A DNA stretch of 64,000 bases from Terrimonas sp. (GTDB taxonomy: Bacteria; Bacteroidota; Bacteroidia; Chitinophagales; Chitinophagaceae), in contig NZ_QCZJ01000009.1 in NCBI RefSeq assembly GCF_003075435.1, positions 1 through 64,000 on the forward strand, read 5' to 3'. Below the pieces are notes generated by a model, which saw nothing but the letters and a program-made list of their open reading frames with translations, was not told the origin of the DNA and did no database searches. This document shows, piece by piece, positions 2,956 to 14,497 of this stretch. The translations under genes and the position numbers were made by a program. The stretch's first letter is position 1. Each line of letters starts with the position of its first letter.

Positions 2956-3930
2956 TCAGCGATTGTTAATGAGATTTATAATGAGTTGTATCATTAATTC
3001 TTTATCATCAGGATTGCTTTGCGCTACAAGTAATGCGAGCGCCACTAATCCGTTATCATTTATTTTAAGCTCTCCATTTTGTTTGAACCGGTGTTTGTTT
3101 TTTTCCAGGAACCATATAAACAAAAATGCGCCTATTCTTTTATTGCCATCGCTGAAGGGATGATTTTTGATAACAAAATATAAAAGATGTGCCGCCTGCT
3201 CTTCAATACTTTTGTACAGGTATTCACCACCAAAGGTTTGAACTATATTGCCAAGAATGCCCTTGAAACTTTCGTCTTTTTGATTCCCAAATAATGCAGT
3301 GGCTTCTTTATTTTCTATCAATTGTTGTTTAAGCGTTTCTATTGCCTTTATCGCTTCTGTGTATTGAATTTCATATGTAATGTTTTCATCCAGTCGCTCA
3401 CTGGTGAGCCTGTTACTGTCGAAACGGTTTAGGAGCACGAAACTTTGGGTGTAATTGGCAATGATATCCAGCAGTCCTTTTACTTCCGATGCCGATAACC
3501 CTTTATTTTTTCCTGATTCCTGTATTATACTTACCACCTGTTGTAATTGTTCCAGTCGCTTTTGGTTAACTGCATAACCCTGCACTAAAAAGTCTTTAAG
3601 GCGTTGGGTGGCCCATTGCCGGAATTGCGTGCCTCGTTTGGAGTTGATACGATAGCCAACCGACAAGATTGCATCCAAATTATAAATTAATTGTTTACGT
3701 TTTACCTGTCTTTTCCCTTCCTTTTGAACTTGTAAGTATTCCTTACAAGTTGAATTTTCTTCAATTTCATCTTCCGCATAAATGTTTTTAAGGTGAAGGG
3801 TGATATTTTGCGGTGTTGTTTGAAAAAGTTCAGCCATTTGCTTTTGTGTAAGCCAAGCGGTATCTCCTTCAAACTTAACTTCTATTTGCGTTTGATCGTC
3901 TGGAGATTGATATATAACAATTTCACTCAT
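2956..3930 (-). CDS. RhuM-family protein with C-terminal Fic domain
   Basis: This 324-residue protein has two parts. The N-terminal half, about residues 1-130, is the RhuM (Virulence_RhuM) domain, with TAWLTQKQMAELFQTTPQNITLHLKNIY and LDAILSVGYRINSKRGTQFRQWAT, the family's DNA-binding-like core. The C-terminal half is a Fic/Doc fold with the catalytic motif HPFSDGNKR starting at about His257. Fic proteins usually transfer AMP or another phosphate-containing group to protein side chains. I chose the ATG at 3930 because relatives start MSEIVIYQ. An in-frame ATG at 3948 would add six residues. No antitoxin-like gene is adjacent. Molecular target unknown. Confidence 0.8.
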   Translation of the reverse strand: MSEIVIYQSPDDQTQIEVKFEGDTAWLTQKQMAELFQTTPQNITLHLKNIYAEDEIEENSTCKEYLQVQKEGKRQVKRKQLIYNLDAILSVGYRINSKRGTQFRQWATQRLKDFLVQGYAVNQKRLEQLQQVVSIIQESGKNKGLSASEVKGLLDIIANYTQSFVLLNRFDSNRLTSERLDENITYEIQYTEAIKAIETLKQQLIENKEATALFGNQKDESFKGILGNIVQTFGGEYLYKSIEEQAAHLLYFVIKNHPFSDGNKRIGAFLFIWFLEKNKHRFKQNGELKINDNGLVALALLVAQSNPDDKELMIQLIINLINNR

Positions 3931-4289
3931 CTTATCTTTTTTCAGCATAGGCTGTTGTATATGAATCTATACGTTGAACACACAATGTAAAAAACATAGG
4001 TAAGATTGCCAACCCATGTTTTGCCCTTCAGTGATAAAACATAATTGAAAAACGACCATAAACACCCAAATTTATACCGGGCACTAAAAACAATCCACAA
4101 TGCTTTGATTAATCATTTCTATTTTCTAATATTACGTTCCCTCCCTGAGCAGATGCCTATGACCCCTTTTACAACACATTATCCGCAACTAGAAAACTTT
4201 ATTGCATAAAGCACCTGCCACCCCTGTAAAATCACATCCTGAGTTTTGTGTAAAACCTATCCATTAGTTCATTCATTAAATTCAATTTG
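3931..4289. other. Gene-free stretch before the giant genes
   Basis: About 360 bases hold no plausible reading frame. Visible items are an AT-rich segment near 4110-4130 and a small palindrome GTTTTGTGTAAAAC near 4244-4257. I see no convincing TAnnTTTG promoter box, RNA gene or terminator. The promoter of the 10-kb giant pair presumably lies here. Confidence 0.4.
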
Positions 4290-7200
4290 ATGACACAGGC
4301 GCAATTGTCTGCCATGCTCGAAAGCATTACCGGCCATCTTACCGCCAAAGATGCCGCACAGGAAGAACAACTTCAGCAGGCGAGGTTGAGGGTTGCATCT
4401 TCCCTGCTCAACCAGAAAATTGAAGATACGGGCAGTGAGCAGCTTTTTTATAAAGCCAATCTCTATAGCAGGGACAATATAAAAAGCAGCACACTGCAAA
4501 GTATAGATAACCTGGCTCACCAGCTAATTGGCAATGCCGGGGCAGAGCCAACCGAAAATGTTTTTGTACGCAGCACTCCGGTGTTGAATGCAGCAATTGC
4601 AGGCAGCAAACCCGACTGGGCTGCAGGCGCTTCTCCGGCTGAAAGTTTTGGACCGTTCCTGAATAATGAAGGGCGTGAGATATGGATAGATATTTACCGT
4701 GTAGAAAAGCTGATTACATTATATCTCGGTAACCAACCCATTCTTTTATTTAAAGCTTCGTTCCGCGGCGGCATATTCCTGCCTGCCAATCAACTCTTCA
4801 CCACTTATAATATTGTTGCCGGCAGTGTTTGGATCAATGCAAGGTTTTTGTATGCTTCCGCGGCAGCAGACAGGTTTGTTGGTGTGCAGGTAAAGAAAGG
4901 CAGCCTTAAATTAAGCGCCGCTCCAACACTGCAGAACAACCAGATAACAATTAATCCGGCTGCTGTAATAGAAATGTCGCTGGAGCTGGTGCAGGATGAA
5001 GATGACGGAGCAGCAGAAACTTCTCCTTATGGTAAAGATGCACGTGCTGCCATTTATACGCTTCCTGCAACATGGGCATTTACATGGCAAAACAATAAAG
5101 CGAACGTTACACAGGTTGCTCCTTCTTCCTGTAATATATATGGTCAGGATATTGCTTTCAATTTTACGCCTGCTGCAAGCACTGCCTTCAAATATGTAAA
5201 TGATATGCTGCTGATCCCCTGGAGGGCAAGTGTAAATGAGTTTAGTTTTTTAAAAAATCAAAGCCCTTGGATTTTGCCTGCCGACACCGCGGAGCTGCAA
5301 AAATCATATTGGGCTTTGCCAACCAGCGCAATCAATATAGCCTCGCCGGTTGCCGCTTCCGGCAATGGGTTGGTAATGCTGCAATGTGCAGAAGGACTAC
5401 GCATCAGCTGGACAGGATTGCAGGATGAAGACATCCGTCTTGTTGCCCCCACCATATTAGGCAAGCCAGGTGATATTGCTATTATTGATCTTGAATCAAA
5501 CGGGCTTGGCGCATCACATCATTTACAATTATGGCAGGATAACGAGAACCCCCATGGCACAACCGCTGATCTTTTATTACTGGAAAAAGCGCCGCTTATT
5601 TTTATCAGCAACAGTAAGGCCGCTGTTGAAGTGATCAGCACTTTCTGCGCGGCAGATATACAGGCCGACAGACCGGTAAAAGTGAACGGTGAACCATTCC
5701 CTGTAGAATCTTTATCGTGCTCATTATTATTGAGCGGCGGCAAAAACGGAAGAAGAGTAATGCTGATAGAAGATGATGTGCAGGCTGACCAGGCAGTTAA
5801 TACGAATATAACAGGTGCGGCTCAGCAGGTGCGGTTGTTTTCTATTGCGCTTGAAAATGCTTTGTTCACCGTATCTCCTGTAAAAACATTTATTCTTTTT
5901 GGAGAGTGCGATGATAGTATGACGGATGTGAAGCGCGGAAATTTTATTGTTGTATTTACACTATACAGCTATTTGCCAACCCTGCCTGATCCTTATGTAG
6001 CAAACCTGGGATTATGGAGAAGGGGTGCAGGCAATGACAGGTATAACCGTCTTGCAGGAGCTGCGGGCTTCAGCAGCCTGCTGGTTTGTTTCATAACTTT
6101 TGTTGGGGCTGATGAAGCAACAGATAATGTAAAAGTCAACTTTTACTTTGGCGGCGTTGAGCTGCCCAATGTTATGGATCTTCCGCAGCAAACGCCTGTT
6201 AAAAAAGCGATTAAAGTCTCCGATGCAAAAGCAAGAACTACTATTACAGCGTTAAAGAAACCATTGCGGCAAACAGCCACCGTTGCAAGGTCTCTGTTTG
6301 GTAATTTGCGCACAACAACTAAATTAACAAGCAACCAGTTTTTACCCGAGGTAATAGATGATATACTAACCGGCGAAATCATAAAACAGGAACCACAACT
6401 GAATGTTGATCTGCTCTCAGGGTATAAAGATGGCAATGGAAAAATATATGATGCGAATGCGCTTGCCAAAATGAAGAGAGATATAGAAGATGTATGGGAT
6501 AGCAGCATCGGTGTTCAGCATGAATTTTTTTCTTTGTTAGATGTAAGCAGCAATGCCAACCAGTTGGGTGTAAGCTTTGGAACCAACTGGCAGATCATAA
6601 AAACAGGAAGTGTTCGCGGCAGGGATGGAGAAGTGCATAATATAGATTACAATGCCGCGGCGTATAATACCGCGTTCCCGTTTTTGGTGGAAGGCATGCA
6701 GGTTAAACTGCCATCGCACCGGGTGCGCGCCTTCACATTGCCGTTAATGGCCTGGGAGCCGGAGATAAATCTTACTCCGCCGGATAGTGATAATCCTCCT
6801 GCAAAATTATTAATGGATCCCGATGCAGGCTTTTTATATTATGCTGATGATGGCGGCCCGGCACGTATATGGAATAACAATGCTGCCCCTGTTCCGTTGG
6901 CGCCCATACCGGTTACCAATGGATTGATTGAAGACTTTACATCGCAACCGGGTAATTATACACTGGCAACCTTCACCCTGCCATTTGGCTTAAAAGCCAT
7001 CAGCTATATTTCAAAACATTTTGTTGAACCGCAAAAGCCGGCTATTGAAAATATCCGTCCAAAGTTCAGGAAGAACGAAGAAGATAACACGTATAAACTT
7101 GAGGGCGGTATCCAGGTAAGCCTGCAGGCCGGAAGATTCGGCAAACCCAATCCTGCCAATCCAACGGAGTATGATAGTGATATGTTTCCCGGCTATACCG

Positions 7201-9866
7201 TTCAGGCAAATAACCTGCTGAACTGGTATGGTATTGCTTCTTATGCCAGCAACCTCGGACACAGAGTGACAGAAATTTTTAATAATGAATTTTTATTCGG
7301 ACCATTAAGCCTTTCCTCTCTTTTAAAAGATTCACGCGGCGTGCCTGTTTCCCGTATGGATGTTACGGGATATGGCGCCAGCATATTCAGCAACTGGATA
7401 AGCCCCGGCGCGGCGTTGGCGCAAACCAGCCAGGCACGGTTTGATGTAATGCTTGGCCGCACGGGGCATGAGGTGATACAGGTGAAAAGCATCCTGTATC
7501 CCTGGGGTATACGTGTAGTGCGCACCATTACGGTTTTCCGCACAGGTTCAGGTTATGTGTTCAGAACCGACAGCGGCTGGAAAGCAGAAAGTGACGGCTT
7601 GTTTGATTTTTCATTCAGCTATTTAAAGAAAGGTGTTGACCCATTCGGCCACCTTACAACAAATGACTTTGTGCACATACCCGATGAAGCGAATAATATA
7701 CCCCCGCAATACGAATTCCACACCGGTATCATCAGGGGATTATTCAATGTAAGAAATATCAAAGACGCCCCTTCCGTAACGGAATATAACAGCGAAAATA
7801 TTATTGCAATCAACGAAGATTATGTGAACGGTGTGAAAGGACAGTTATATACAAATACAACCGGCGCTCCTTTGCATGAGCCTGTAAAATGCGGCGGTGT
7901 ATATTTTGATGCTGATGTAGAAATAGAAAATGTAGTGCAGGGGCATGTAAATAAAAGAGTGGTATCAAAACGCATACTCGGTTATGTGCAGGTAGCGCCC
8001 GCCGGCAAACCGCTGACAGCCCAACAATTAAAAGAACTGCTGGATCTGCAAAACGGGAGCATCGGCGGCGATATTGATTGTGTACTCGATATCAATAAAA
8101 GCAACCAGCAAATACGTGCAGCGCGTTTTGATGTAGCGCCTTCAATTGATAAGGCGGGTACCAAGCCGGTATTTGTGGTGGCTGCAAGGGGTAATGTTTT
8201 TCTGCCTAAAGATGGTAGCTGGGCTTTGGTTCAGCATAATGTAGGCACAGGAGAAGTTACGCCGCTGCCAACAGATACAATGGTTCCGCTTATTCGCACA
8301 GGCGCATGGAAAAAAGGAAATGTGGTTGATAGCAATATTCTGCAGAAACAACTTGTTCGTGTGGCGCATCCTATGGAAATATTACGCGACCCTGCTGCTG
8401 ACACACTGAACTTCGGTTACCTGCAATCAACCGCAACGCAAAAAGCCTTATTCCTTACACCGGCCTACGAGCTGAATAATGCTAAAATGCTCAGCAAAAC
8501 GCCGCCTGTTTTTGCTGATGCTTACCGCCTGATGAGCGGGGAAAGTATATTCCCTAATATCGGTAATGCCATAGACAATTTTGGCAAGGCCATGCCTTTG
8601 CTCAACAGCAAAGATGGTAATGGCAACACCTTCCAGGCTTTTACGCAAAGCGTGCTGGAAGACGGAGGAACAAAAGTTTGGGAGTTAATGCAGGTGGAAG
8701 CAGTGAAGGCAGGTGAAGCCGCGATCAGCCAGGGTATGAATATGCTGAAGCAGGGGGCAAATGGCATTCTTGATAAAGCATTGAGGTTTGATGTGCCTTC
8801 TTTTGAAGTGCCGCTGGTTGACACGGAAGCGCTTAGAATATATATTGAATATAAAACGGGTAAAAAGGATGCTCCTGCTAATACTTATGTAGACAGTAAA
8901 CTAAACTTTGATGTAGATTCTTTTGCCAACGATATGGGCAACCAATGGAAGAGCCGCCTGAATAATCTTGCGATGGTGGTTGACCTGGGTGACATGAAAC
9001 GCCTGATGATTATCAAAGGAAATTTTGATGCCGGAAAAGGCAAAGAGAGTAATTATGAAGGCGGACCTGATGGTAATACTGACGGGCTGCCAATGCCGGA
9101 AATAGAATTCAGCGATGCATTACAACCGGTAATTGATATACTGCAGATGCTGGCATCGTTAAGCACCAATGATTATAAAGAAGTGCTGAAAAAAGGATTG
9201 AAGCTTGCCATGAGCAATAGTGGCGAAATATGGCAATATAAATTTGAAGCCAGCAAAGAGATCGCCACCATCCGGTTCCCGCCTACAGATGAACTATACA
9301 ACAGCGCTCAAACACCGCTCAAGCTTGAAGCATCATTAAGCGCCGGCGTATATTTTAATGCTGCATTAAAAGTTACTACAGATCCTTCACAATTGTTGCC
9401 AACAGCAGGAGCATTCCTGCAATTCCACGGCGGTTTGCAGATCATGTGTTATTCCGTTGGTGTTGGATCAATATATGCTATTGGAGCGGTAGATGTAAAA
9501 ATTGCCGCAGATACTAAGGTTGGGCCGAGCCTGCAATTGAAATTTGGTTTTGGGGTATCCATAGTTGTTAGTCTGCCTGTGGTAGGCAATGCGAGCGTAA
9601 GCTTTATGGTAGGTGTGGAAATGTATGCAGATAAAGATAAAGTGGTGCTGGCAGCATTAATGGTATTTAAAGGTCAGGCAAACCTGCTGGGTGGTTTGGT
9701 ATGTGTTGCCATTACTATAGAAGCCAAAGGAATAGTGGTGCGGGAACTGGGCAGTGATAAAACAGACTGCAGCGCCCAGGTAACATTTGCTATAGATATC
9801 AGCATCTTTTTGATTATTGATATCAGCTTCTCCAAAACATGGGGAGAAGACAGGCAGGTGGCGTAG
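4290..9866 (+). CDS. Giant protein of unknown function (1858 aa), first of a pair
   Basis: I do not recognise this family. The protein has no signal peptide, lipobox or type IX sorting domain, so it is predicted cytosolic or exported by a non-classical route. Residues 1-70 are helical and glutamine-rich (AKDAAQEEQLQQARLRVASSLL). Residues 90-700 look like successive beta-rich domains. A short Lys/Arg-rich linker (about 640-690) precedes a middle region with many beta strands. A helical stretch at about 1400-1530 (AFTQSVLEDGG..EAAISQGMNMLKQ) precedes a C-terminal block of about 175 residues made of glycine-rich, alternating hydrophobic strands (FGFGVSIVVSLPVVGNASVS). Translation most likely starts at this ATG, and a TTG lies immediately before it. 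The next gene is also giant, suggesting one complex. GC content and codon use resemble the neighbours. Confidence 0.85.
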   Translation: MTQAQLSAMLESITGHLTAKDAAQEEQLQQARLRVASSLLNQKIEDTGSEQLFYKANLYSRDNIKSSTLQSIDNLAHQLIGNAGAEPTENVFVRSTPVLNAAIAGSKPDWAAGASPAESFGPFLNNEGREIWIDIYRVEKLITLYLGNQPILLFKASFRGGIFLPANQLFTTYNIVAGSVWINARFLYASAAADRFVGVQVKKGSLKLSAAPTLQNNQITINPAAVIEMSLELVQDEDDGAAETSPYGKDARAAIYTLPATWAFTWQNNKANVTQVAPSSCNIYGQDIAFNFTPAASTAFKYVNDMLLIPWRASVNEFSFLKNQSPWILPADTAELQKSYWALPTSAINIASPVAASGNGLVMLQCAEGLRISWTGLQDEDIRLVAPTILGKPGDIAIIDLESNGLGASHHLQLWQDNENPHGTTADLLLLEKAPLIFISNSKAAVEVISTFCAADIQADRPVKVNGEPFPVESLSCSLLLSGGKNGRRVMLIEDDVQADQAVNTNITGAAQQVRLFSIALENALFTVSPVKTFILFGECDDSMTDVKRGNFIVVFTLYSYLPTLPDPYVANLGLWRRGAGNDRYNRLAGAAGFSSLLVCFITFVGADEATDNVKVNFYFGGVELPNVMDLPQQTPVKKAIKVSDAKARTTITALKKPLRQTATVARSLFGNLRTTTKLTSNQFLPEVIDDILTGEIIKQEPQLNVDLLSGYKDGNGKIYDANALAKMKRDIEDVWDSSIGVQHEFFSLLDVSSNANQLGVSFGTNWQIIKTGSVRGRDGEVHNIDYNAAAYNTAFPFLVEGMQVKLPSHRVRAFTLPLMAWEPEINLTPPDSDNPPAKLLMDPDAGFLYYADDGGPARIWNNNAAPVPLAPIPVTNGLIEDFTSQPGNYTLATFTLPFGLKAISYISKHFVEPQKPAIENIRPKFRKNEEDNTYKLEGGIQVSLQAGRFGKPNPANPTEYDSDMFPGYTVQANNLLNWYGIASYASNLGHRVTEIFNNEFLFGPLSLSSLLKDSRGVPVSRMDVTGYGASIFSNWISPGAALAQTSQARFDVMLGRTGHEVIQVKSILYPWGIRVVRTITVFRTGSGYVFRTDSGWKAESDGLFDFSFSYLKKGVDPFGHLTTNDFVHIPDEANNIPPQYEFHTGIIRGLFNVRNIKDAPSVTEYNSENIIAINEDYVNGVKGQLYTNTTGAPLHEPVKCGGVYFDADVEIENVVQGHVNKRVVSKRILGYVQVAPAGKPLTAQQLKELLDLQNGSIGGDIDCVLDINKSNQQIRAARFDVAPSIDKAGTKPVFVVAARGNVFLPKDGSWALVQHNVGTGEVTPLPTDTMVPLIRTGAWKKGNVVDSNILQKQLVRVAHPMEILRDPAADTLNFGYLQSTATQKALFLTPAYELNNAKMLSKTPPVFADAYRLMSGESIFPNIGNAIDNFGKAMPLLNSKDGNGNTFQAFTQSVLEDGGTKVWELMQVEAVKAGEAAISQGMNMLKQGANGILDKALRFDVPSFEVPLVDTEALRIYIEYKTGKKDAPANTYVDSKLNFDVDSFANDMGNQWKSRLNNLAMVVDLGDMKRLMIIKGNFDAGKGKESNYEGGPDGNTDGLPMPEIEFSDALQPVIDILQMLASLSTNDYKEVLKKGLKLAMSNSGEIWQYKFEASKEIATIRFPPTDELYNSAQTPLKLEASLSAGVYFNAALKVTTDPSQLLPTAGAFLQFHGGLQIMCYSVGVGSIYAIGAVDVKIAADTKVGPSLQLKFGFGVSIVVSLPVVGNASVSFMVGVEMYADKDKVVLAALMVFKGQANLLGGLVCVAITIEAKGIVVRELGSDKTDCSAQVTFAIDISIFLIIDISFSKTWGEDRQVA

Positions 9867-9871
9867 GGCGG

Positions 9872-9948
9872 TGGGCAATGGGCTTTGAGCTATCAGCCGT
9901 CAGCTATCAGAAGGTCTTTCATGCCGATCGCCCATAGCTCATTGCCCA
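9872..9948. repeat. Imperfect inverted repeat between the two giant genes
   Basis: TGGGCAATG (9872-9880) pairs with CATTGCCCA (9940-9948). Nested inside it, GAGCTAT (9887-9893) pairs with ATAGCTC (9934-9940). The loop carries two copies of CAGCTATCAG-like words. The element fills most of the 123-bp gap. There is no T-run, so it is not a classical terminator. It resembles the simple-word repeats seen in other gaps of this window. Confidence 0.7.
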
Positions 9949-9989
9949 TAGCCGACGGACTAAATATTAAACGTTGATAATATTATATT

Positions 9990-12900
9990 ATGGAAGCGAA
10001 CAGAAGATATACTACGATGGTTTTCCCTCAGGGATTTGATGGAACAGTATTAAAGCTGAACATCGTGCTTATTCCGCGTAACCGTGATCCTTTTAATAAT
10101 GCAACAGGACTGGCCGCGCCATTTGATACCGCAACAGCTTTTGCTGATATTAACCCTGAGTTTGAATTAAAAGTAGTTAAAGGAATGAGTGAATGGCCTA
10201 TTGGTAATGCGTTGGCTGTTGGCAGAACCCCTGTTAGTATTGGCATTAACGTGAATGCTGCGGGAAATAAAAAAGCTTTGCTTGAAGCGATCAGAACAGA
10301 TTTTGGCGCTAAGATCAATATTACGGATACGGATAAAACACCCAGTGAATTTTATACGGTAAATAAATACCTGCCGGAAACCTACCGCGATTCATTCAAC
10401 TTTACCGGACCGCGTGTGCCTAATGCAAAAACAGATGACAGCTATCACTGCGCCATAAAAAAAGATACCAAGAAGAAAGATGGCTGGAAAAACGATGACG
10501 ACCTGAGCTGGGGTAAAGTATTTGCCTATATACTCCGCCAGCCATTGCTTGCAAAAGCATGCGGTATGGTTTACGAAACACAGTTGGTTATTGATGACGG
10601 CAATAAAGCATTGTTCGAAAAAGGTTGCTATATATATGCTGATATCACCACACCGGAATATAAAAATATACAGGATCAGTTGATGATTACCGCAGATGGC
10701 CCGTTTATTAAGCCGTATGCCGCAAGAATACCCAAATTAAAATTGGGTGATGAAAACAAACGACCTGTATTTGCACCCATTTTATTCCCGGTATTGTTTG
10801 TAAAAGCAGGTGAGCTTGTAGACCCGGAGCCGCCCAAAGCGCCCTGGGATAAAATATTCGCTGAGCTCAATGAATATAATGACGGCTTCTCAAAAATTGT
10901 ACATGCCGGTCAACCTGTAAGCCGTATATGGCTGGCTGAACAACAGGATGGCGCTCCGCCTGTAAAAGATGAAGGCATACGGCTTGCATGGGATGATGAG
11001 CAGATACTGATATGGTATATGCGGCAGTTAGAAGCCAACCCGCAGGAGCCGGGCAAACGTATTGATGCACCGCTTGGCGTATTCGGGTATAAGATTGATG
11101 TACAGGAAGATGCCGTGAATGCCGACTGGAGCAGCCTTAACCTGGTAAGCTGCAAACAGGCATACAGTTTTGGCGGCGTACCGGTAGGTAATGCACCCAA
11201 CCAGCAGCTCGAATTACCCTTCCAGGTTTTTCCCACACAATTGGATAACGATACTACGGCGCCTTTCTGGCTGCCCATGTATTTTACAAGCTGGATAGGC
11301 AAGAGCATGATCTTAAAAGATACCGACGCCATTGCTATTCACCAGAATGATGAAGCAAGGTTGGATAAGGATGATCCCACCCCAACCAAAGCGGTTGACG
11401 CCAATAATATGTTTGATGAAGTGCCTGCGGCTACGCTGCTCCGTTATGGTCACCGTTACCGGTTCAGAGTGCGCATGATGGATATAAGCGGCGGCGGGCC
11501 GGGCATAAGCGAAGATGTATATAACAATGCGCCCGCGCCAACTTCTGAATGGAGCTTTAAAAGATATGTGTCGCCGGCATTATGCCGCATAGAAAAGCCA
11601 TTGGATATACGACTGGTTAAGGCTGATTTTTATAATGAGATCATCACTGAAGGGCAACCTTCGGTATTTGATGCAAATCCGGTTATTAATATTCAACGAC
11701 CACTGCTAAACTACCCTGCTGTTGTATTTACTGATAAATACCAGGCGCTGGGCAGCAACCCTGTACAACTGCTGATACAATCCGCACAGGATCAAAAGCA
11801 GGGAGGAACTACTGATGAGCCCAATGTTGTTCAGCCTGCGATTGCTGATCCTGATGTAACCAAAGTTGAAGTTAAGGTGGAAGTTGAAACGCTGAGGCTT
11901 GATAACCTGGCCAGCGATAGTGGTAAGGAAAATTATATTACACTATACAAAACCACAAGAGATTTCCCGGCGGTAGTCAATGCCGCTGATTTTGAAAATT
12001 CACTTTCGCTGAATGTGGTTTTTCATGATATACCAACACTTAATCTGGGCAGCCTTGATGATCCGTTTAATGACCCTGCATTGAACAAAGCAGCTATCGA
12101 CGCTATGCAGGATATACCATTGCCTTCCGCAAGAAAAATAAGAATGACGATAAGAGCTGTATGTGATGGAAACAATAGCTCGTATTACGGGTTTATTAAC
12201 GAAGGTAATCATGATCTGGACAGCCGCTACGGTAAAACAACCCAATTCCGGTTTTATAAGGAATCTGCTGATGAAAGTAACCTGCTGTTGCCAAAAGCCA
12301 ATGTGCCCGGGCTGAAGGGGTTGTACCTGCAACCCGACCCTGAGTATATACGCAAGGGCGTTGTTGGGCAGTTTTTCTTTTTTAACGCAGAAACAAGCGT
12401 GCAGCCCAATATCATGCAGCGGCTTGCACAGCAACTGGGTGTAAAAGCCAATGGTTTAACGTTGGTATCAGAAAAAGGCGAAAGGGTTGTGTTTGGCTGC
12501 AATAACAAGATACGCCATAGCCTGGCGCCAGATGGCAGCAGCATTACTTTTTCATCCAAAGGAGATTTGTGTAACCACTGGTTGGGTTGCCTGGTATACC
12601 GGATTGACCGCGACTGGAGCTGGGACGCATTGGAAGATGTAGCCTTTACTATCTCCCGGAATAAAAAATTCAGTAAAGATGCGCCGGATGAAGCAGAGGT
12701 GCTGGCAAATATCGGCGATATAGAACTGAAGCATTCGGCTTCGTTCGAGTCATTACAGGCGGACGCTTTTGGTAATGTGAACAGGAGCAGTACCACTATT
12801 ATTTTTATTGACGCGATTGAACCAAAATCTTCTTTACTTACTCCTGGTGGACGACTGCGTTTCCCGGATACAATAGAAGTGCAGTATACCGTCACACCAA

Positions 12901-14426
12901 ATTTTAAACCAGGGCATGGACAGCCTGCAAGTATACAACCAGACCTGATTCTGTTGCCTTCAACCGTTATCCCATCACAGGTGCCTAAAATTGCGAGTGT
13001 AGGATTGGCGTTCTCTCCATATATCAAGGCAGAAAAATATCAATCTACCGAGGCAAGACAAAAATATTTATGGGTTGAACTGGAAGAGCCGGTTGAAAAC
13101 CCGGCTGATACCTTGTTTTGCAGGGTGCTGCATTACGCGCCGGACCAGCTCATCGGTAATAATAAGCAGCTTGCCGAGCTGTTGCGTGAAACAGAAGAAA
13201 ATCCGCCTTTACCCATTGAACCGGAATATATCCGGATGATCACGCCCGGGCAAACAGATGATATGGCCGGACTGAGCGCTATGCAGCCTATGGAAAAAGC
13301 AAGCGATGATGACGATATTCACTACCTGCTGCCTTTGCCACCGGGACTGTATGCTGAAAGCCCTGAACTGTTCGGGTTCTTTACCTACGAGTTCCGCATC
13401 GGCCACGGGCACTGGAGCGACGGCCAGGAAGGAAAAGAAAATTTATGGAGCACCGCGCAGGGGCGTTTCGGACGACCGCTTGAGGTAGCCGGTATGCAAC
13501 ATCCCGTACCAACATTGCTGTGCAATGTAAACAGGGATAAAGACAAAGTATATGTAACCGCGCCGTACGCCAGGGCAGTATATAAGGGAAAGAATGTAAC
13601 CAGCGATCCGCCACGTACACAACTGCATTGCGTATTGTATGCACAGGTGCAGCAGGCAGACCGGCTTGAATACAGGAATATATTGCTGGATGAAAAATTA
13701 ATGACACTGGTAAAACCACCGGCCAGGGGAACTGTGGGCACATTTAATCCCGGCACTTTTACCAATACGGTTGTGTCGTCCATAACCAATATATCAACGG
13801 TATGGACACTGGGCGAAGTGGATGATATAGCAAGAGCCAATGTGGTGCTGAGCAATCTTACTTTAATGAATGAAGTATCGCGGTTGAATGTGAGCGGTGA
13901 ATATGAGAAAAAGATAACAAGGGCTATAACAGATTACAGGAAAGGCAAAGTGGTTAAAATAGATAAAGGCATGGCCTCAACTATATTGCAGGCCTTTGAT
14001 GAGCTGAAGCTGAAAGAGGCTGCGCCGCCTGTAGCCGCCGCAAAATTTACTGATGCTACGCTTGTGGCGGGAGCAATAAAAGCGATTTATAAAGACCTGC
14101 CTAAAACCGCCACCGCTGTCTGGGATAATAAAGAGATCGCGGTGCTGCTTACACAATTGGGTTTACCTGAAGATGCCGCGCTGAGCGTATTGGTGGTAGA
14201 AGTATTCGGTAATATCACCAGCTTCTTTGATCATTTCTTTTCTTTAACGGATGAGCAACTGACCGCCTTGCAGGGTATTGATAATACCCAGTTGATCGCA
14301 TCAACATTGCTGGAAAGAAGACGGAAGAACCGCCAGGCGTTGAATGAAGAACTGGGTAATTACAGGATATTGCGCACATCGCCGCTTACAGAGGTGCCGT
14401 TTGTTTGCTGCCCTACGTGCGGGTGA
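9990..14426 (+). CDS. Giant protein of unknown function (1478 aa), second of a pair
   Basis: No family is recognised and there is no signal peptide or transmembrane segment. The start ATG is well placed and no longer in-frame start exists. The protein looks like a chain of beta-sandwich domains. Residues 1-290 begin RRYTTMVFPQGFDG. Residues about 310-560 contain strand patterns reminiscent of fibronectin-III modules (IRLAWDDEQILIWYMRQ; LRYGHRYRFRVRMMD). Residues about 700-1150 are again beta-rich. The last 200 or so residues are helical (FTDATLVAGAIKAIYKDL) and end with a short cysteine cluster, CCPTCG, that might bind a metal or form disulfides. It follows the first giant gene by 123 bp on the same strand, with no other gene between. 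A joint role is inferred from synteny alone. Confidence 0.85.
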   Translation: MEANRRYTTMVFPQGFDGTVLKLNIVLIPRNRDPFNNATGLAAPFDTATAFADINPEFELKVVKGMSEWPIGNALAVGRTPVSIGINVNAAGNKKALLEAIRTDFGAKINITDTDKTPSEFYTVNKYLPETYRDSFNFTGPRVPNAKTDDSYHCAIKKDTKKKDGWKNDDDLSWGKVFAYILRQPLLAKACGMVYETQLVIDDGNKALFEKGCYIYADITTPEYKNIQDQLMITADGPFIKPYAARIPKLKLGDENKRPVFAPILFPVLFVKAGELVDPEPPKAPWDKIFAELNEYNDGFSKIVHAGQPVSRIWLAEQQDGAPPVKDEGIRLAWDDEQILIWYMRQLEANPQEPGKRIDAPLGVFGYKIDVQEDAVNADWSSLNLVSCKQAYSFGGVPVGNAPNQQLELPFQVFPTQLDNDTTAPFWLPMYFTSWIGKSMILKDTDAIAIHQNDEARLDKDDPTPTKAVDANNMFDEVPAATLLRYGHRYRFRVRMMDISGGGPGISEDVYNNAPAPTSEWSFKRYVSPALCRIEKPLDIRLVKADFYNEIITEGQPSVFDANPVINIQRPLLNYPAVVFTDKYQALGSNPVQLLIQSAQDQKQGGTTDEPNVVQPAIADPDVTKVEVKVEVETLRLDNLASDSGKENYITLYKTTRDFPAVVNAADFENSLSLNVVFHDIPTLNLGSLDDPFNDPALNKAAIDAMQDIPLPSARKIRMTIRAVCDGNNSSYYGFINEGNHDLDSRYGKTTQFRFYKESADESNLLLPKANVPGLKGLYLQPDPEYIRKGVVGQFFFFNAETSVQPNIMQRLAQQLGVKANGLTLVSEKGERVVFGCNNKIRHSLAPDGSSITFSSKGDLCNHWLGCLVYRIDRDWSWDALEDVAFTISRNKKFSKDAPDEAEVLANIGDIELKHSASFESLQADAFGNVNRSSTTIIFIDAIEPKSSLLTPGGRLRFPDTIEVQYTVTPNFKPGHGQPASIQPDLILLPSTVIPSQVPKIASVGLAFSPYIKAEKYQSTEARQKYLWVELEEPVENPADTLFCRVLHYAPDQLIGNNKQLAELLRETEENPPLPIEPEYIRMITPGQTDDMAGLSAMQPMEKASDDDDIHYLLPLPPGLYAESPELFGFFTYEFRIGHGHWSDGQEGKENLWSTAQGRFGRPLEVAGMQHPVPTLLCNVNRDKDKVYVTAPYARAVYKGKNVTSDPPRTQLHCVLYAQVQQADRLEYRNILLDEKLMTLVKPPARGTVGTFNPGTFTNTVVSSITNISTVWTLGEVDDIARANVVLSNLTLMNEVSRLNVSGEYEKKITRAITDYRKGKVVKIDKGMASTILQAFDELKLKEAAPPVAAAKFTDATLVAGAIKAIYKDLPKTATAVWDNKEIAVLLTQLGLPEDAALSVLVVEVFGNITSFFDHFFSLTDEQLTALQGIDNTQLIASTLLERRRKNRQALNEELGNYRILRTSPLTEVPFVCCPTCG

Positions 14427-14451
14427 GGGTATCGCCAGAGGCGATAAGAGG

Positions 14452-14497
14452 GCTATGCGTGGCGAAGACGCCACGCATAGCATGAACGCCACGCATA
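14452..14497. repeat. Strong hairpin with a third copy of the arm
   Basis: A perfect 13-bp stem GCTATGCGTGGCG (14452-14464) and CGCCACGCATAGC (14469-14481) encloses the tetraloop AAGA. A third partial copy of the arm, CGCCACGCATAGG, follows at about 14487-14499 after the spacer ATGAA. It lies 25 bp after the second giant gene, so it may end or stabilise that transcript, although no T-run follows. Confidence 0.8.

Follow-up and report, generated by a model that had tools for sequence, protein, structure and literature searches.

Two adjacent giant genes in Terrimonas sp. as a candidate two-subunit system with relatives in distant bacteria

What do two consecutive giant genes without a recognisable family encode, and do they belong together? 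The question is raised by positions 4,290 to 14,426 of a 64,000-nucleotide stretch of DNA from Terrimonas sp. (GCF_003075435.1; Bacteroidota, Chitinophagaceae). This stretch, here called the window, stands at the start of a contig of 208,657 bases (C9, NZ_QCZJ01000009.1). The first giant gene, P1 (4290..9866, + strand), encodes 1858 amino acids (aa) counted from the ATG at 4290, its open reading frame (ORF) opening at 4287/4290. The second, P2 (9990..14426, + strand), encodes 1478 aa. We consider it rather likely that a single large, beta-rich complex is built from P1 and P2 as obligate subunits, and that the two genes form a self-sufficient unit which moves as accessory DNA.

Co-occurrence and common history of the two genes

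The layout was as claimed in a first-pass annotation of the window: two genes on the same strand, 123 bp apart, with nothing else sharing the block; the remaining ORFs of at least 100 aa inside it are antisense, presumably mechanical and up to 257 aa long. The sense frames are under purifying selection. Whole-gene ratios of nonsynonymous to synonymous substitution (dN/dS) against five close relatives were 0.03-0.08 in the eight of ten comparisons that were computable, three of these ratios being rough (dS above 2); the other two comparisons (P2 of loci L031 and L032) were saturated. Best-segment identity to P2 was 94% in the metagenome-assembled genome ACE_BAC13, 84% in Sphingobacteriales 44-15 and 76% in Agriterribacter humi.

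P1 was found in 14 of the 244 genomes of the window's family (13 of 101 genera), and P2 was present in all 14. Both genes lie on one contig in 12 of these carriers, with P1 first and P2 next on the same strand. They are on different contigs in G095 and G120, and in G095 the P2 start follows P1 at the contig end. One carrier (G162) holds two pairs, on contigs C4 and C12. A search with P2 across the order matched 11 of 396 genomes, six of these from another family, and a P2 profile run across the phylum matched 18 of 395 genomes, of which ten gave strong hits (type A) and the other eight weak ones (type B). When a P1 profile was applied to 23 P2-bearing genomes and four plasmid records, 17 of the 27 matched; the ten misses were the eight type-B genomes, G340 and the record of Microvirga sp. 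VF16. Type-B genomes aside, P1 was present in 17 of 19 further genomes and records chosen for P2, and both misses concern partial data: P2 begins at the first base of its contig in G340, and the Microvirga sp. VF16 record holds a 20% fragment of P2. Homologues of the two genes are thus not routinely found apart, which was the co-occurrence that the first-pass annotation had proposed to check.

The pair is also found on plasmids. Both genes, in the same order, are present in plasmid records of Candidatus Chlorohelix allophototropha (Chloroflexota), Microvirga terrae and Tistrella mobilis (Alphaproteobacteria), where they are annotated merely as hypothetical proteins; the P1 frame of Tistrella is disrupted. 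Wherever both genes share a contig, their order and strand are constant across phyla. Named cultured carriers of both genes are Agriterribacter humi, Paraflavitalea pollutisoli, Flavisolibacter nicotianae and Microvirga terrae.

Trees of 30 P1 and 30 P2 proteins had 23 of 27 splits in common (mean 0.22 and maximum 3 in 1000 label permutations), and the pairwise identities of the two proteins were correlated (r = 0.958 over 435 pairs). In both trees G768, from another class, stands beside G193 of the window's family, and the family members G172 and G208 group with G482 of a different family (f18). The P1 tree was a quick one without bootstrap, in which long branches (Tistrella, Microvirga, G162b) are unsurely placed. 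Because both trees place the pairs together against taxonomy, we read them as suggesting that the pair has moved intact between distant bacteria. In the sister genomes G123 and G239, which lack the pair, a search for the empty site with the DNA right of the pair gave only short dispersed matches and revealed no such site.

No third gene recurred beside the pair in an all-against-all BLASTP of 44 pieces from 40 loci, which covered predicted ORFs of at least 60 aa within BLAST reach, and an earlier survey agreed. The largest cluster of other neighbours (about 960-1180 aa) was found at 7 loci. The question of a third partner, also raised in the first-pass annotation, was therefore answered in the negative for these loci.

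Family searches and parts of the proteins

In scans up to E 10, the best Pfam match of P1 and P2 had E 0.11, below its cut-off, NCBIfam gave no match, and the best PHROGs match (E 0.044) was not beyond chance. For P1 the Pfam scan returned 0 families, hence no match to DUF6603 (PF20248). PADLOC models of anti-phage defence gave 0 matches up to E 1, and the best match to PDB sequences (E 0.21) was not credible. Profiles of 21 P1 and 23 P2 relatives had no match to PDB sequences either, and no Pfam family appeared in more than one member when these relatives were scanned singly. The sole strong Pfam match among them was FG-GAP in one P2 relative (E 2.6e-9), which is probably that of G193, as taken from its tail extension, since the table itself names no member. 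The G193 protein (L092 6017-11452) continues for about 390 aa beyond the usual cysteine tail, a natural C-terminal fusion in which the FG-GAP repeats probably lie. Six pattern-based scans of IMG/VR confirmed no relatives, and a comparison of P1 and P2, though not of type B, with 50,697 phage records gave no match; a phage origin was rejected on these grounds. Homology between P1 and P2 was likewise rejected after a negative comparison. A literature search at the level of titles and abstract openings, with preprints and most subscription journals outside its scope, found nothing on the pair.

Neither the family libraries nor the PDB sequence searches, with single proteins or with profiles, matched P1 or P2 credibly to a described family, in line with the first-pass annotation. 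Together with the linkage and the fixed order and strand across phyla, this supports its suggestion of a paired, undescribed system. The main caveat on calling the pair categorically new is that a known fold may be masked by sequence divergence, because both structure predictions yielded nothing usable: the AlphaFold mean pLDDT (predicted local distance difference test) was 34.4 for P2 residues 100-1245 (9 rows) and 30.1 for P1 residues 730-1857 (8 rows).

Conservation is unevenly spread over P1. Its N-terminal half (residues 1-650; 4290..6239, + strand) is the fastest-evolving part, with a median identity to the window copy of 0.32 among 28 relatives. It is followed by a linker at about residues 650-740, which varies in length and is Pro-rich in some relatives, and by a conserved C-terminal half (residues 740-1858; 6507..9863, + strand) with a median identity of 0.49 among 29 relatives. 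The last part of this half is a beta-like domain (residues 1670-1858; 9297..9863, + strand), and the protein ends in RQ(I/V/L)(A/S) in 23 of 30 P1 rows, comprising most type-A copies. The core of P2 also has a median identity of 0.49 (29 relatives). A variable linker at about residues 1246-1379 (13725..14126, + strand), absent or short in many relatives, precedes a C-terminal tail (14127..14423, + strand) with the alignment consensus LGxYRILRTSPLTEVPxxCC and a conserved terminal cysteine. In 28 of 30 P2 proteins a cysteine falls within the final 16 residues; the exceptions are G193, with its extension behind the motif, and G208, which is truncated where its contig ends.

By a crude propensity profile, the alignments (rows of Tistrella and Microvirga excluded) contain 17-19% strand and 2.5% helix. 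The first-pass description of beta-rich chains with short helical ends was supported, at the level of this crude propensity, for the beta-rich character and for a helical N-terminus of P1, but not for P2, which has a strand-like start. Profile self-comparison listed no internal repeats in P1 or P2 (for P1, one run without output). A hydrophobic N-terminus was not found in the window copies (top 17-residue Kyte-Doolittle mean, among starts in the first 60 residues, 0.36 for P1 and 0.99 for P2), nor was a Tat-like (twin-arginine translocation) pattern in the first 150 residues of any of 21 P1 rows (the N-terminus is missing from one). Judged by N-terminal hydrophobicity and by Pfam and NCBIfam, no dedicated signal predictor having been used, P1 and P2 have no export signal, lipobox or type IX sorting domain, in agreement with the annotation. 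Internal hydrophobic stretches on the same scale occur at P1 1831-1847 (mean 2.11) and P1 589-607 (about 1.98), and reach 1.74 in P2.

The spacer between the genes (9867..9989, + strand, 123 bp) folds into a strong hairpin (-43.9 kcal/mol, z -3.83). It measures 123-228 bp in the window copy and its five close relatives, whereas in 19 carriers outside this close kin it ranges from a 4-nt overlap to 539 bp and is at most 57 bp in 14 of them. Because of this difference we propose that the spacer may hold an inserted palindromic repeat. Directly 3' of the P2 stop lies a dispersed repeat of about 50 bp (14432-14481), which has 8 further matches in its own genome (79-96% identity) and several in other genomes of the genus. 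Upstream of the pair, the gene at 2956-3948 encodes a RhuM-family domain fused to a Fic domain. Elsewhere, about 5.7 kb separates the Tistrella pair (L144 24916-33479) from a very large gene for a non-ribosomal peptide synthetase, and a catalase gene is found near both the Tistrella and the Chlorohelix pairs.

A second, deep clade

Type B is a deep second clade which occurs in Actinomycetota, Alpha- and Betaproteobacteria and the window's own phylum, and which keeps the two-gene layout. Its second proteins, the eight weak P2 matches of up to about 1450 aa, each stand behind another large gene. In six genomes this first gene is a giant ORF of 1467-1719 aa, while in G916 and G913 what precedes the second gene is its cut end at a contig border. 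The type-B second protein is homologous to P2 over 314 columns corresponding to P2 residues 166-513 (10485..11528, + strand; hhalign 97.1%, E 7.6e-11). Among the first proteins the similarity lies in the C-terminal domain described above: P1 residues 1670-1858 matched the type-B first proteins in local hhalign mode with 92.7% (E 4.2e-7), where 60 column shuffles gave at most 1.4% and the reversed profile 4.2%. The C-terminal 300 residues of the first proteins gave 94.3% (E 1e-7; 60 column shuffles at most 2.5%, reversed profile 9.6%), and segments from P1 away from its C-terminus and from P2 scored 0.1-0.4%. These E-values are somewhat optimistic because several segment lengths were tried.

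When one type-B pair served as tblastn query, 11 plasmid records matched its second gene and 10 of these matched its first gene too; the records are from Streptomyces, Rhizobium, Cupriavidus, Diaphorobacter and Sinorhizobium, and the first-gene search extended further, to Agrobacterium, Ruegeria and others. Much longer first proteins, of 3039-3311 aa and with another large gene next, are encoded on plasmids of Rhizobiales (Sinorhizobium, Agrobacterium, one Rhizobium) and of Ruegeria (L182 10122-24596, L196 3091-18725, L195 8200-22874 and L183 8239-21188); their second proteins form a separate BLAST cluster and are perhaps a third clade. By pattern and inspection, without a predictor, 7 of 12 type-B first proteins have a Tat-like twin-arginine start and five have none; the annotated start is perhaps incorrect in some cases. 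The Sinorhizobium pair is followed by a tatA-like gene. In the type-B giants that were scanned, Pfam found no credible domain, just coiled-coil-type matches below cut-off.

Some neighbours recur at the level of single lineages: a related protein of 940-960 aa is encoded, in divergent orientation, beside three type-B pairs (L146 15012-17834, L147 1385-4267 and L148 1307-4153), with RCC1 repeats in the L147 copy. In G813 the type-B first gene (L150 9347-13750) ceases to resemble its relatives towards its end, as though the reading frame were broken there.

A possible two-subunit complex, its alternatives and known systems

The evidence supports two partner proteins that need each other, for which a heteromeric complex is the simplest mechanism. 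The first-pass annotation had pictured large paired proteins, not secreted, that could form a big complex; the pairing was supported, and the complex is still a proposal. P1 and P2 would form one transcription unit and would bind each other, probably with the C-terminal half of P1 and P2 as the conserved body. The fast-changing N-terminal half of P1 would face the partner, ligand or cell that is recognised, and the cysteine tail of P2 may anchor, crosslink or cap the assembly. More speculatively, the complex could act at or beyond the cell envelope towards other organisms or surfaces; in type A it might get there by lysis or another route, and in some type-B members via Tat. Because some type-B first proteins have Tat-like signals, a role at the envelope or outside the cell appears somewhat likelier than a purely cytoplasmic one; the description of the proteins as not secreted accordingly holds for P1 and P2 and fails for some of their distant relatives. 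We lean slightly towards the wider view that the unit represents an undescribed class of self-contained, two-subunit giant machine, made of two genes only. Such a class would be present in at least four phyla and comprise no fewer than two ancient clades, one of which has first subunits with Tat-like export, in some cases longer than 3000 aa; it would have spread with the pair kept whole, on plasmids among other ways.

Several points weigh against the proposed complex. The complex is deduced from linkage, which could reflect a shared pathway without mutual binding, and the AlphaFold models are uninformative. No export signal is visible in P1, so that a role outside the cell would rest on the distant relatives. 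Full-length profiles of type-A and type-B first proteins did not match (1.6%), and in a tiling of P1 against the type-B first proteins only the C-terminal part was significant (next-best tile 3.5%). A single transcript is uncertain in some carriers because spacers reach 539 bp, and neighbours shorter than 60 aa or past BLAST reach would escape the survey.

That the pair is instead a two-component toxin or antagonism system like the large toxin complexes, assembled inside the cell, released and acting on another cell, seems unlikely to us. Its size, the lack of a visible signal peptide, the patchy distribution, plasmid carriage and transfer as a pair would all fit, and the fast-evolving N-terminal half of P1 could serve recognition; yet no scanned member has a Pfam toxin domain, the C-terminal half of P1 and the P2 tail are conserved where a variable toxic C-terminus would be expected, and no recurring neighbour could be an immunity gene or a third component. 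An intracellular structural or storage complex that serves as a scaffold, shell or compartment and does nothing beyond the cell also has a low probability. It would agree with the strong purifying selection, with the lack of a Tat-like pattern in all 21 P1 rows and with the N-termini of the window proteins, which are not hydrophobic. The Tat-like starts of the type-B first proteins argue against it, a patchy and transferred distribution is odd for housekeeping scaffolds, and the hydrophobic stretches near the P1 end, by Kyte-Doolittle only, could touch membranes.

We think it quite improbable that the proteins belong, as remote members, with the giant beta-rich proteins of the DUF6603 kind, which were found in 13 of 117 sampled family genomes (G001, G003, G101 and others; L198-L209) with open frames up to about 3230 aa. 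A strand-strand-TWG pattern was seen by eye at the ends of P1 and of 5 of 12 DUF6603 stretches. In the main C-terminal comparisons, which included all 12 rows, the type-B C-terminus scored 30.5 against that DUF6603 subgroup (100 shuffles at most 25.1) and the P1 C-terminus 25.9 (shuffles at most 24.7). However, hhalign probabilities were only about 1-11%, scores with the other DUF6603 subgroup fell within the shuffles, the window's genome, like P1 itself, had no Pfam DUF6603 match, and no similarity was found over the rest of P1 or to P2 (4 of 12 DUF6603 rows compared). Least probable, in our estimate very much so, is that the pair serves as cargo for a contractile injection system whose genes lie in another part of the genome. 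The sheath family PF04984 was matched at E <= 0.001 in 8 of 14 carriers and 60 of 230 other genomes (Fisher one-sided p 0.017), and above the family cut-off in 5 of 14 and 31 of 230 (p 0.039); this was the sole association of its kind tested, with genome size and kinship uncontrolled. In the window's own genome, however, the sheath gene (contig C1) is unlinked to the pair (contig C9), six of the 14 carriers have no sheath match, and no neighbour recurs beside the pair.

The two-subunit complex is the preferred reading. Its subject is a costly 10-kb pair under strong purifying selection, which apparently crosses phyla in one piece and goes unseen by the family libraries that were searched. It is also a clean target: because it has only two genes, no accessory part came to light and cultured carriers are known by name, both the complex and its location are directly testable. 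If the pair does form a machine, it would be a new kind of large bacterial assembly; if it does not, the pair at least delimits two large families that now pass as 'hypothetical proteins'.

Among known proteins, those with DUF6603 are alike in being giant, of unknown function and patchy in the family, with strand-like repetitive ends and a faint C-terminal resemblance; they have no significant sequence or profile match to the pair. Insecticidal-type toxin complexes (Tc) are large, multi-subunit, without signal peptide and patchy in distribution. The pair shares with them its size, the lack of a visible signal peptide and the patchiness, and differs in having two genes only and no toxin-like variable end. 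The Pfam library includes Tc models, and whole-Pfam scans of the pair members found no credible match to Tc domains. Two-partner secretion (TPS) is defined by a secretion barrel and by an exoprotein with a signal peptide and a TPS domain, and these parts have no match in the pair, by Pfam and N-terminal hydrophobicity. Like the pair, two-partner secretion systems are two-gene units with a giant partner (PMC5422565). Polymorphic toxin systems have a variable C-terminal toxin region and an adjacent immunity gene; in the pair the C-terminal parts are conserved, and no neighbour recurs. Components of contractile injection systems are encoded in clusters with sheath, tube and baseplate genes, but beside the pair no such gene recurs, and in the window's own genome the sheath gene is unlinked. 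As far as tested, toxin complexes, two-partner secretion, polymorphic toxins, injection systems and the listed defence systems each have at least one defining sequence feature that the P1-P2 pair lacks.

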